Shown: positions 1,842-39,189 of the stretch, piece by piece | Layout of the letters: the number at the start of each line of letters is the position of its first letter | Numbering within the stretch: the stretch's first letter is position 1 | Assembly (NCBI GenBank): GCA_016217925.1 | Contig: JACRFK010000005.1 | Location: 1-44,169, forward strand | Source: Candidatus Kaiserbacteria bacterium | Lineage (GTDB): Bacteria; Patescibacteriota; Minisyncoccia; Phycocordibacterales; UBA2100 | DNA length: 44,169 bases | Direction: 5' to 3' | Made by a program: the position numbers and the translations under genes | The notes under the pieces: generated by a model | Databases searched by the model: none | The model's input: the letters and a program-made list of their open reading frames with translations, nothing else | What the model was told of the DNA's origin: nothing

Positions 1842-2240
1842 ATGGGACTCTTCACAAAAACAAAAAAGTCCGCCGGAGGCGGATCCTCCTCCGGAGGAAA
1901 GAATACAGAAGCAAAGCAGATGGCAGTCGCTACGCCTGCGAGCACATCTCCTTCGATGGGCCGTGATATTTCCACGATTCTGAAACACGCGCGCATCACC
2001 GAGAAGGCGAGCATGCACCAAGCAGGCGGCGTGTACACATTTGATATTGCCCGGGCGGCGACGAAGCGAGATGTGATACAGGCCGTGCGTGCTCTCTATG
2101 CGGTGACGCCACGTACCGTGCGAATCGTTACAGTTCCGACAAAAGTACGCCGCAACGCGCGCACGGGAAAGCTCGGCATGACCGGGGGTGGCAAGAAAGC
2201 GTACGTGTACCTTAAAAAGGGTGAGACGATAACCTTCTAA
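1842..2240 (+). CDS. rplW: 50S ribosomal protein L23 with N-terminal low-complexity extension
   Basis: YTFDIARAATKRDVIQAVRALYAVTPRTVRIV; position between L4 and L2. Confidence 0.95.
   Translation: MGLFTKTKKSAGGGSSSGGKNTEAKQMAVATPASTSPSMGRDISTILKHARITEKASMHQAGGVYTFDIARAATKRDVIQAVRALYAVTPRTVRIVTVPTKVRRNARTGKLGMTGGGKKAYVYLKKGETITF
1869..1901 (+). repeat. 33-nt coding palindrome (SAGGGSSSGGK) copy 1
   Basis: TCCGCCGGAGGCGGATCCTCCTCCGGAGGAAAG; same-frame relatives at 9780 and 38005. Confidence 0.7.
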
Positions 2241-2244
2241 ACGT

Positions 2245-2358
2245 ATGAATCCCGTTAGAAATTTACTTATGACATCAATACAGGCACAGGGGTTGTCAGG
2301 CTTACTTTCTACCGCATATGCGGAGCAGGATTATTCAGTAAATTTCTAACGGGATGAA
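2245..2358 (+). mobile_element. MITE-like inverted-repeat element at rplB start codon with 34-aa uORF
   Basis: 19-bp perfect stem 2249-2267/2337-2355; ATGAA direct repeats 2245-2249 and 2354-2358; uORF 2245-2349 MNPVRNLLMTSIQAQGLSGLLSTAYAEQDYSVNF*. Confidence 0.7.
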
Positions 2359-9524: not shown

Positions 9525-9818
9525 ATGGAACCAGAACTCAAACAAGGAAAAACATTCGAAGGCATCGTCGTAAAATCGGCGATGAAAGACACGGCTACGG
9601 TCCAGGTGGAACGCTACGTAAAGCACCCGAAGTACAAGAAATTCATGCGTCTCTCGAAGAAGTTTTTGGTACACGATGTCGGTAATACTGCGCAGATAGG
9701 GGAGAAAGTGACTATCCGTGAGACTCGTCCCATCTCAAAGCGTAAGCGTTTTGTACTCGTTTCCCGCGACACGCAGGTGTCCGCCGAGGGCGGATCCTCC
9801 TCCGGAGGAAAAGAATAA
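9525..9818 (+). CDS. rpsQ: 30S ribosomal protein S17
   Basis: KTFEGIVVKSAMKDTATVQVERYVKHPKYKKFMRLSKKFLVHD...GEKVTIRETRPISKRKRF. Confidence 0.96.
   Translation: MEPELKQGKTFEGIVVKSAMKDTATVQVERYVKHPKYKKFMRLSKKFLVHDVGNTAQIGEKVTIRETRPISKRKRFVLVSRDTQVSAEGGSSSGGKE
9780..9812 (+). repeat. 33-nt coding palindrome (SAEGGSSSGGK) copy 2
   Basis: TCCGCCGAGGGCGGATCCTCCTCCGGAGGAAAA at the C-terminus of S17. Confidence 0.7.
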
Positions 9819-16600: not shown

Positions 16601-16723
16601 ATGAATCCCGTTAGAAATAGCGGACTGTCACTCATTTCCTCACACATGGTCGTTTTTATCACTCATAACAAAATAGGGCGTGTACCCAGTATCCGGTCCG
16701 CGTCCTATTTCTAACGGGATGAA
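16601..16723 (+). mobile_element. MITE-like inverted-repeat element at cmk-like start codon with 37-aa uORF
   Basis: 16-bp stem 16605-16620/16705-16720; ATGAA direct repeats 16601-16605 and 16719-16723; uORF 16601-16714 MNPVRNSGLSLISSHMVVFITHNKIGRVPSIRSASYF*. Confidence 0.7.
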
Positions 16724-28983: not shown

Positions 28984-29604
28984 TTATTCCGCTTGGGGAG
29001 GAGGGGGTTGCTGAAGAACTGCCTTTTCCTGCCTGGGTTGCTTCTGCTGTTGCGGTTTCTTGGACGGGTCGCGCTCAAGGGTGATGGAGAGCCCTTTAGG
29101 GCCCTTTTGGATAGGTTCGGCGACCTTGAAACCCTCCGGAATGACCGCAAGGAATCGTTCGAGGCGCTCTTTGAGGAACTCGAATTCCATGTATTTGTAG
29201 CGTCCCCACAAAAAGAGGTCCACCTTTACGCGGTGGCCTTCTTTGAGCCACTCGGCGGCCTTGCCGGCCTTGATTTGCATGTCGCGCTCCGAGGTGCCGA
29301 TCTTCACCTGCGTTATCTTGGTCTCCGTCACATGCGCTTTGGATTTTATCTCCTTGTCTTTTTTCTTTTGCTCGTATTTGAATTTACCGTAGTCGGTAAT
29401 TTTGCACACTGGCGGCTGCGCGTTGGGTGATACTTCGATGAGGTCGAGTCCGAGCTCAGCCGCCTTTGCGAGTGCCTCGCGGATAGGAAGGACGCCGAAA
29501 TTCTCGGCATTGGGGCCGATGACGCGCACTTCAGGGGCCCTGATGCCCTCATTCATGCGCGCGCGCTCTTTTTCAGCCTGCGATGTGTATTTGGTGAATC
29601 CCAT
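28984..29604 (-). CDS. infC: Translation initiation factor IF-3
   Basis: IRAPEVRVIGPNAENFGVLPIREALAKAAELGLDLIEVSPNAQPPVCKITDYGKFKYEQKKK. Confidence 0.97.
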   Translation of the reverse strand: MGFTKYTSQAEKERARMNEGIRAPEVRVIGPNAENFGVLPIREALAKAAELGLDLIEVSPNAQPPVCKITDYGKFKYEQKKKDKEIKSKAHVTETKITQVKIGTSERDMQIKAGKAAEWLKEGHRVKVDLFLWGRYKYMEFEFLKERLERFLAVIPEGFKVAEPIQKGPKGLSITLERDPSKKPQQQKQPRQEKAVLQQPPPPQAE

Positions 29605-29727
29605 CCCGTTAGAGGCAGGAAGCTTGCGCTTCCGCGGCGAATTTTGATGTTGTTACAAATTTCATTTTTTAAATGACGTCACCGTATGGTACCACGACGA
29701 ACTTCCGTAGCCTCTAACGGGACCCAT
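29600..29727 (-). mobile_element. MITE-like inverted-repeat element at infC start codon with two overlapping uORFs
   Basis: 13-bp stem 29604-29616/29710-29722; ATGGG direct repeats (minus) at 29727-29723 and 29604-29600; uORFs 29662-29727 MGPVRGYGSSSWYHTVTSFKK* and 29609-29665 MKFVTTSKFAAEAQASCL*, ATGA overlap. Confidence 0.7.
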
Positions 29728-29774
29728 TTGGTCCGCGCATTATGGCATTTCCGGCTTGATGTTTCAACCGCGTC

Positions 29775-33003: not shown

Positions 33004-33009
33004 TATTTG

Positions 33010-33394
33010 TGGAGATGGCGAGAATTGCACTCGCGTCCAGAGAAGAGAATATGAGTGACTCTACACAACGTAGACCATCTTGTGATTTAAGCACCTCATC
33101 TTAAAGATGAACGAAACGATGCGATGCCGAACTCTCTTTCTTTAGATTTTTATCCGGAGTGAGATAAGAATCGAACCCGAATTTTATGACACGCCAACTA
33201 CCTCATCGGACGTCGAGCAGCGGCATGGTCGCTTAGGCTAACGCGTAAGCGAACTGAAGGTCTTTCATCTGAATCGGTGAAAGAACTCCACGTGCAGTTT
33301 TATTTGCACTTAGATTTTGAGGCAGTTGAAAAGGTGCCTCAGCTTTGTTGTGCACAAACATATTCCTATTTCCCTGTCGAAACTGATCATCCCC
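33010..33394 (-). ncRNA. ssrA: tmRNA, tag ANKTARGVLSPIQMKDLQFAYALA
   Basis: 5' GGGGATGATCAGTTTCGACAGGG; 3' GCGAGTGCAATTCTCGCCATCTCCA; acceptor GGGGATG/CATCTCC; tag frame 33307-33233 ending TAA; no encoded CCA; next to smpB. Confidence 0.92.
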
Positions 33395-37983: not shown

Positions 37984-39189
37984 ATGGCAAAAAAGGATGT
38001 CTCATCCGCCAAAGGCGGACCCCCCTCCGGCGGGAAACTTGCTCAAACAGCTCTCGCACTCCACAAAAAGCTCGGCGGCAAAATCCGTATCATGCCCGCG
38101 GCACCTGTGCGCAACCGTGCTGACCTCTCCCTCGTCTACACACCCGGTGTCGCGGCGGTCTCTTCGTACGTTGCGAAATATCCGCAGGAAGCCCGCGACT
38201 ACACGATAAAAGGTCGCATGGTCGCCGTTATCTCCGACGGCTCCGCCGTGCTTGGTCTCGGCAATATCGGTGCCCTGGGCGCCTTGCCGGTCATGGAAGG
38301 GAAGTGTGCGCTTTTCAAGACGTTTGCCGGAGTTGATGCGTTTCCCATCGTCCTCGACACTACTCCGCTAAAGCTTCGAAGTGCAAGCACACAGGAGGAA
38401 ATAGATTTTATCGTTCAAACAGTTATCGCCATTGCCCCCGCGTTCGGCGGCATCAATCTTGAAGACATCGGCGCACCGAAGTGTTTTGAAATAGAAAAAC
38501 GCATCTCTGATGCACTCGACATCCCGGTCATGCACGACGACCAGCACGGCACCGCTATCGTCGTCTTGGCGGGTATGATAAATGCGCTCAAAGTCGTCGG
38601 CAAGAAAATGTCTTCGGCGAAGTTCGTAATCCTCGGCGCGGGGGCCGCGGGGACGGCGACCGCAAAGCTTCTGCATGTCGCGGGAGCAAAAAACATCGTC
38701 GTGCTCGATAGTAAAGGCATCGTTGACTCCAAACGCCCCGAGCCGCACAAACGCGAGCTTGCAAAATTCAATACGAGAAACGTGAGAGGAGGATTGCGCG
38801 AGGCACTCACCGGTGCCGACGTCTTGCTCGGCGTTTCTGGTCCCAATCTGGTGAAAGCGGAAGATATCCGGCTCATGGCGAAGAAGGCGATAGTCTTCGC
38901 GATGGCGAATCCGACACCTGAGATCATGCCGGACGAGGCGAAGCGAGGGGGAGCGATGGTCGTCGGTACCGGCCGCTCGGATTTCCCGAACCAGATAAAT
39001 AATTCGCTCGCATTTCCCGGCATTTTCCGCGGTGCGCTCGACCACGGCGTAACGAAAATTACCGATGAGATGAAAGTGAAAGCGGCAAAAGCGATAGCCG
39101 CACTCGTCAAAAAGCCGACCGCCAACTACGTCATTCCAGACATGTTCGACAGACGCGCTCCTCTCGCGGTCGCCAAAGTGATACGCTGA
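37984..39189 (+). CDS. NAD-dependent malic enzyme
   Basis: ADLSLVYTPGVAAVS...AVISDGSAVLGLGNIGALGALPVMEGKCALFKTFAGVDAFPI...VMHDDQHGTAIVVLAG. Confidence 0.93.
   Translation: MAKKDVSSAKGGPPSGGKLAQTALALHKKLGGKIRIMPAAPVRNRADLSLVYTPGVAAVSSYVAKYPQEARDYTIKGRMVAVISDGSAVLGLGNIGALGALPVMEGKCALFKTFAGVDAFPIVLDTTPLKLRSASTQEEIDFIVQTVIAIAPAFGGINLEDIGAPKCFEIEKRISDALDIPVMHDDQHGTAIVVLAGMINALKVVGKKMSSAKFVILGAGAAGTATAKLLHVAGAKNIVVLDSKGIVDSKRPEPHKRELAKFNTRNVRGGLREALTGADVLLGVSGPNLVKAEDIRLMAKKAIVFAMANPTPEIMPDEAKRGGAMVVGTGRSDFPNQINNSLAFPGIFRGALDHGVTKITDEMKVKAAKAIAALVKKPTANYVIPDMFDRRAPLAVAKVIR
38005..38037 (+). repeat. 33-nt coding palindrome (SAKGGPPSGGK) copy 3
   Basis: TCCGCCAAAGGCGGACCCCCCTCCGGCGGGAAA in N-terminus of malic enzyme. 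Confidence 0.7.

Follow-up and report, generated by a model that had tools for sequence, protein, structure and literature searches.

REP sequences and REPINs with their RAYT (TnpA-REP) proteins, and the IS200/IS605 elements, are short palindromic hairpin elements mobilised by a separate small nuclease or transposase, and in this resemble the element described here, whose own mobilising enzyme is inferred. The REP/RAYT and IS200/IS605 enzymes are Y1 HUH proteins, their elements feature GTAG-type motifs, and no target duplication is formed. Rickettsia palindromic elements are 100-150 bp palindromic inserts compatible with translation of the host gene; they reside inside coding regions, whereas the present elements occupy start codons, duplicate the ATG, and include a nuclease-coding form. 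No earlier description of the present element was found in Rfam, in NCBIfam or in the open-access literature searched, the last being weak evidence as preprints were not included; term searches of PMC12455944 and PMC1564403 yielded no description either. The family is widespread and apparently undescribed.

An insertion at the infC start codon

The window analyzed is the 44,169-nt stretch at positions 1-44,169 of contig JACRFK010000005.1 of a Candidatus Kaiserbacteria bacterium (GenBank assembly GCA_016217925.1). Its infC gene codes on the minus strand for a translation initiation factor IF-3 of 206 aa (28984-29604), matched by IF3_N (PF05198, 1e-31) and IF3_C (PF00707, 5e-8), the latter scoring slightly under the curated cut-off. 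Minus-strand residues 29727 to 29600 read ATGGG-T-CCCGTTAGAGGC...GCCTCTAACGGG-ATGGG, in agreement with a preliminary description of the locus. The inserted DNA (T-CCCGTTAGAGGC...GCCTCTAACGGG; 29605-29722, minus strand) is 118 nt long, and is flanked by an upstream ATGGG copy (29723-29727, minus strand), which keeps the original position of the start codon relative to the promoter, and a downstream copy (29600-29604, minus strand), which is the infC start codon. The ends form a perfect inverted repeat of 12 bp, the left arm being made up by CCCGTTAGA plus GGC (29710-29721, minus strand; 9 invariant and 3 covarying nt), the right arm by GCC plus TCTAACGGG (29605-29616, minus strand). A predicted hairpin, GGAAGC-GCAA-GCTTCC (29618-29633, minus strand), adjoins the right arm, and its CTTCC has an alternative partner in a GGAAG near the left arm, giving an inner stem.

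Two small ORFs cover the element on the minus strand. The first, uORF1, reads MGPVRGYGSSSWYHTVTSFKK from the upstream ATG to a stop codon (29662-29727); the second, uORF2, reads MKFVTTSKFAAEAQASCL, overlaps the first through ATGA, and ends at a TAA located 4 nt before the infC ATG (29609-29665). This layout, also noted in the preliminary description, held, and is chained alike in the two other filled infC sites found (genomes G012 and G020): in all three the first ORF ends few bases from the second ATG, and the second ORF at the TAA 4 nt before infC. A -10-like box, CATAAT (29739-29744, minus strand), begins 17 nt before the upstream ATG. A box of this type begins 16-17 nt before the ATG in most infC loci, empty or filled (TATAGT at -16/-17 in most empty relatives), and the infC transcript is therefore probably near-leaderless.

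Within the genus, 23 infC loci were compared; 20 lack the element and 3 are filled. The insertion reading is supported because empty sites exist in these relatives: DNA was inserted at the infC start codon with duplication of the target site. The preliminary description had proposed a true target-site duplication, to be refuted if the infC 5' region were identical in distant relatives with no empty alleles; the outcome was the opposite, and the claim held on the empty infC alleles and on the 5-mer repeats of the 207 elements described below. The elements at the three filled sites differ from one another (67-79% identity); all are inserted at the identical base, and all have ATGGG duplicated. 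On the infC tree, well-supported branches require three independent changes of occupancy, which rules out a single fixed ancestral insertion at this gene. Empty sites were also found in close relatives for the rplB and cmk copies, and for the gene located behind the GIY-YIG copy (see below).

An RNA leader or riboswitch is ruled out by the empty sites and by the lack of an Rfam match, since an Rfam 15 scan of the window returned above gathering score only a tmRNA and one tRNA, leaving the element unmatched. The tmRNA gene resides at 33007-33394 on the minus strand.

Other copies in the window and in the genome

The window contains three copies, the infC element being the third, as had been claimed. 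A copy of 104 nt (2250-2353, plus strand) is found at the start codon of rplB, coding for L2, between ATGAA repeats at 2245-2249 and 2354-2358, and the site is empty in genome G017. A copy of 113 nt (16606-16718, plus strand) is found at the start codon of the cytidylate kinase gene cmk, behind secY, between ATGAA repeats at 16601-16605 and 16719-16723; here the site is empty in five genomes (G010, G007, G003, G009 and G025). The end sequence CCCGTTAGA occurs 6 times in the window vs. 0.33 expected, a number never reached in shuffles, and the RNA fold compared with shuffles has a z score of -5.2 for the infC copy, of -5.3 and -4.6 for the other two. A chance palindrome is ruled out by both measures.

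Pattern searches, on which all genome-wide counts depend, identified 14 paired copies and one degenerate copy in the 980,822-bp host genome. Nearly all are flanked by a 5-mer repeat starting with ATG, and they are 67-119 nt long, one copy of 276 nt excepted. The genes downstream code for a pseudouridine synthase, a protein with a weak S21-like match, SMC, FtsK, RecO, NusG, L2, cytidylate kinase, IF-3, a glycosyltransferase, a NUDIX protein and a cytidylyltransferase-like protein. The family is thus not confined to translation genes. A suggested link to the autoregulation of infC failed for this reason, the same element being found at the SMC, FtsK, RecO, NusG, L2, Cmk, glycosyltransferase and NUDIX genes, and ATGGG, which had been taken to match the start context of infC itself, is one among many duplicated five-mers. 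The full-length form described below is situated elsewhere in the genome, and was beyond the view of the preliminary description.

A second family of short palindromic repeats, GTCCGCCGGAGGCGGATCCTCCTCCGGAGGAAA, has three copies in the window (1868-1900, 9779-9811 and 38004-38036), two of them 79% and 94% identical to the first.

Target duplication and start codons

A total of 207 elements was collected. The 5-mer repeat is perfect in 117 of them, and matches at 4 of 5 bases in 28 more. The duplicated five-mers include ATGAA (71 elements), ATGGA (16), ATGAG (13), ATGCG (6) and ATGGG (2), others being found besides; the consensus is ATGRR, and the right-hand copy is the real start codon. Among 163 elements with a right-hand ATG and sufficient flank, this ATG opens an ORF of at least 60 codons in 151, the other frames in 3 and 10. 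One of the collecting patterns, used on genome contigs, forced the ATG, and only searches not demanding it are a fair test of the start-codon rule: ATG was found in 13 of 14 cases in the own genome, in 11 of 13, and in 11 of 14 for a sister family. Palindromic elements were oriented to favour ATG, which introduces a small bias.

Pyrimidines are rare at position +4 of the duplicated five-mer (3/114 elements vs. 47% of ordinary starts; p = 4e-27). The five-mers of the elements are ATGAA in 62% of cases, vs. 20% of ordinary starts. With a purine at +4, the U of the downstream AUG gains a possible pairing partner, and the stem can grow by two pairs. By rough gene calls, 344 ATGRR sites are found in the window, 65 outside genes and 16 at starts. 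No sequence feature beyond ATGRR accounts for the preference for start codons. Copies flanked otherwise (GCCCG..., CCCCG...) lie in some cases away from start codons. The enzyme may select start codons, or insertions there may merely be tolerated.

At one locus (L372) the element is inserted at an ATGAA immediately after CTACGGG, the apparent end of another element; a single start codon may have been hit more than once, by nested or serial insertion. Paired elements on the same strand, their starts no more than about 260 nt apart, were observed at L105 (6578-6699 and 6790-6911) and L066 (5898-6020 and 6159-6281).

Ends and interior

The inverted repeats are at least 12 bp long and perfect in 104/123 elements. 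The nine invariant end bases are built into the search pattern; the next three vary, yet pair between the ends in 94-99% of the elements. These changes nearly always keep Watson-Crick pairs and seldom give G-U, for which reason pairing of the ends at the RNA level is not favoured; matched DNA ends, or a DNA hairpin, would fit better, an inference resting on sequence alone. Inner stems of at least 5 bp are found in 45/106 elements, vs. 12.6 after swapping ends between elements. A single RNA fold for the interior was tried and rejected, the alignment of 99 elements of 108-124 nt giving the terminal stem as sole consensus. Several subtypes of interior can be distinguished, a few interiors appearing inverted relative to the ATG. 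In four loci (L064, L072, L073 and L085) the hairpin adjoins the left arm rather than the right one, as would be seen if the interior had been flipped with respect to the target ATG.

Inferred translation through the element

The right end, TCTAACGGG-ATG, offers three exits depending on the frame: fusion to the gene (...SNG-M), a TAA 4 nt before the ATG, or a TGA within ATGA. Reading from the upstream ATG meets no stop ahead of the exit in 47/106 short elements vs. 18.3 in dinucleotide shuffles (maximum 28); the other forward frames are open in 4 and 0 of 106. An excess of open frames through short elements is thereby shown. A chained path, with reinitiation within 25 nt, reaches the gene in 77/106 elements vs. 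43.8 (maximum 56), and no such path exists in the remaining 29. That ribosomes pass through the element and reinitiate is inferred, in the absence of expression data.

A full-length form coding for a GIY-YIG nuclease

The 276-nt copy of the host genome (G000:C8:58824-59100) codes for a GIY-YIG protein (PF01541, 2.2e-15) reading MIPVRDKESFYTYILRS...KGFLSLTG, translated from the upstream, host-derived ATG and terminated by a TGA that overlaps the restored start codon as ATGA. Many other genomes of the order have copies of 270-281 nt organised alike and with the same ends, in which the ORF usually terminates in such an ATGA overlap. The protein has about 92 aa, and its alignment conserves Y-x-Y, YTG, R and RE. 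The median dN/dS is 0.14, indicating purifying selection. The nearest solved structures, and best solved relatives of the nuclease domain, are UPF0213/GIY-YIG proteins (PDB 1zg2, 1ywl) and SLX1 (7wme), for which no mobile context was found in this analysis; NCBIfam has no model matching the nuclease. In the fetched loci, with elements up to about 430 nt, the ends were found to enclose no coding content but GIY-YIG, with DDE, tyrosine and serine transposase genes all lacking.

GIY-YIG genes of like size are also found between other inverted repeats, of the GTACGA, GTTCCA, GTTAAAT and GTAGTAG types, and short copies of the GTACGA family reside at start codons too. Several terminal types have each their own GIY-YIG clade, and terminal type tracks the nuclease tree (10 changes vs. 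50 when shuffled) with hosts spanning many families. Ends and nuclease therefore behave as one mobile unit; because they are linked on the same DNA, the agreement is no proof that the nuclease recognizes the ends. In one clade (L253, L262, L277, L282 and L291) the genes are bounded by CCCGTAGTAG...TCACTACAGGGA, with more inverted repeats inside. In another (L244, L252, L256, L259, L269, L275 and others) the ends are ACCC(T/A/C)GTTAAATAA...TTATTTAACAGGGT, often with TGATG or TAAATG after them, possibly reflecting a different target rule.

Distribution among genomes

The end motif was detected in 99/297 genomes of the order, the reversed control being nearly absent. It is further found in MAGs labelled Saccharibacteria, Kerfeldbacteria, Levyibacteriota, Doudnabacteria, Kazan, Omnitrophota, Nitrospirae, Planctomycetes and Desulfobacterales, binning errors being possible. 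Two viral contigs carry one. A GIY-YIG match at E<=1e-20 is present in 31/43 genomes with at least 5 end motifs vs. 26/198 genomes without the motif (Fisher 3e-14; counts tallied by hand). Two genomes, G109 (17 motifs) and G300 (20 motifs), have many short copies and no close GIY-YIG gene; these copies may be relics, contigs may be missing, or another mobiliser may exist.

Proposed model and alternatives

The infC feature is likely a short, non-autonomous copy of a mobile element inserting at start codons, a reading given a probability of about 0.7. Insertion, duplication, location at start codons, the GIY-YIG form, recurrent occupancy and the excess of open frames are shown; the GIY-YIG protein as mobilising enzyme, the cut, mobilisation of short copies in trans, a DNA intermediate and reinitiation are inferred, there being no transposition data. 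In the model, the element would target the start codons of genes, duplicating five bases of ATGRR type. The full-length form, about 276 nt, would consist of inverted-repeat ends and one GIY-YIG nuclease gene, which starts at the ATG of the host gene and would therefore borrow the host promoter and ribosome entry. Short copies, which retain the ends and a structured interior, would probably be moved in trans by such a nuclease. The protein would most likely make a staggered cut at ATGRR, the element, possibly folded into a hairpin, would enter as a copy or by relocation, and filling of the gaps would yield the 5-bp repeat, the duplicated start codon restoring the host gene and keeping it alive. 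Ribosomes starting at the upstream ATG would translate the element and reach the downstream ATG via fusion, the TAA at 4 nt or the ATGA overlap, at infC via the two chained mini-ORFs; translation would also open the stem, in which the downstream start codon otherwise has its A and U paired.

A bolder reading, held by a narrow margin, is that these elements are a new class of minimal mobile DNA, about 276 bp long, with a GIY-YIG nuclease as the only gene, inverted-repeat ends, 5-bp duplications and no classical transposase, several families being start-codon specialists which are expressed from the host start and pass ribosomes on.

The alternative that survives best is survivorship, according to which insertion occurs at any ATGRR and copies away from starts are nearly all lost by selection. 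In its favour, most ATGRR sites lie inside genes, where an insertion would break the gene; against it, intergenic ATGRR sites are about 4 times commoner than start sites, and own-genome copies are almost all at start codons. Survivorship is a little more doubtful than credible, and is compatible with the main reading, as both can be true.

An ordinary MITE, moved by a conventional transposase encoded elsewhere in the genome, with GIY-YIG as a passenger of the long copies, is unlikely. Inverted repeats and a 5-bp duplication are the usual marks of MITEs, and the many short copies of G109 and G300 without a close GIY-YIG gene would fit. Against this, GIY-YIG is the sole gene found between the ends across many families, at a near-constant 270-300 nt, and evolves under purifying selection; genomes rich in copies tend to have a close GIY-YIG gene, and several terminal types have separate nuclease clades. 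Looping, by which the stem lets initiation complexes skip the element, host promoter and ribosome site acting directly on the downstream ATG with the uORFs untranslated, is also improbable: the stem does put the upstream flank within few bases of the downstream ATG, and 29/106 elements have no open path, but looping would not select the strong excess of open frames seen in one frame only. A riboregulator, in the form of a conserved structured leader that infC shares with other genes and that ends at start codons by chance, has in its favour the strong predicted stem and the covarying arms, and is all but excluded by sporadic presence, empty close relatives, exact 5-mer duplication, unrelated genes and no Rfam match.

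If the start-codon element is what the main and bolder readings propose, it would be among the smallest autonomous transposable elements known, and would survive in compact genomes by hitting the sole position where insertion plus duplication restores the gene, the genes affected including the presumed essentials infC, rplB, nusG and smc. These data raise the questions of how a 92-residue protein could bring about DNA insertion when no known transposase is involved, and of what singles out start codons. Many proteins annotated in these genomes may carry false N-termini (MNPVRN...SNG-M), or be false small genes.

Comparison with known systems

The 5-bp duplication and the GIY-YIG enzyme set the element apart from REP/RAYT and IS200/IS605, whose defining traits, a Y1 HUH transposase and no target duplication, are not met. 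Homing endonuclease genes of the GIY-YIG type (I-TevI, the seg genes, group I intron endonucleases) are likewise selfish GIY-YIG nucleases in a mobile unit, often in conserved genes, and the domain with conserved tyrosines, arginine and glutamate is present here. The single cognate-allele site of homing genes is not, 14 sites being found at unrelated genes in one genome; the element differs by inverted repeats, 5-bp duplications and many unrelated sites per genome. It also differs in being without intron or intein, its coding frame beginning at the host start codon. No self-splicing RNA or protein-splicing element within a coding sequence, as in group I introns and inteins, is found; the element has no Rfam match to an intron, and the insert stands before the restored start codon.

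MITEs and bacterial insertion sequences are likewise short, with inverted-repeat ends, a fixed-length duplication and a sporadic distribution, and feature non-autonomous copies alongside full-length ones. The element has the inverted repeats and the fixed-length duplication with empty sites, while among elements up to about 430 nt none was found that shares its ends and encodes a recognised transposase, as an autonomous partner would. The element thus behaves like a MITE/IS pair, yet fails the transposase criterion as far as tested; it differs in that its gene codes for a GIY-YIG nuclease of about 92 aa, with no DDE, tyrosine or serine transposase found between the ends, in that its target is a start codon, and in a full length of just about 276 nt.
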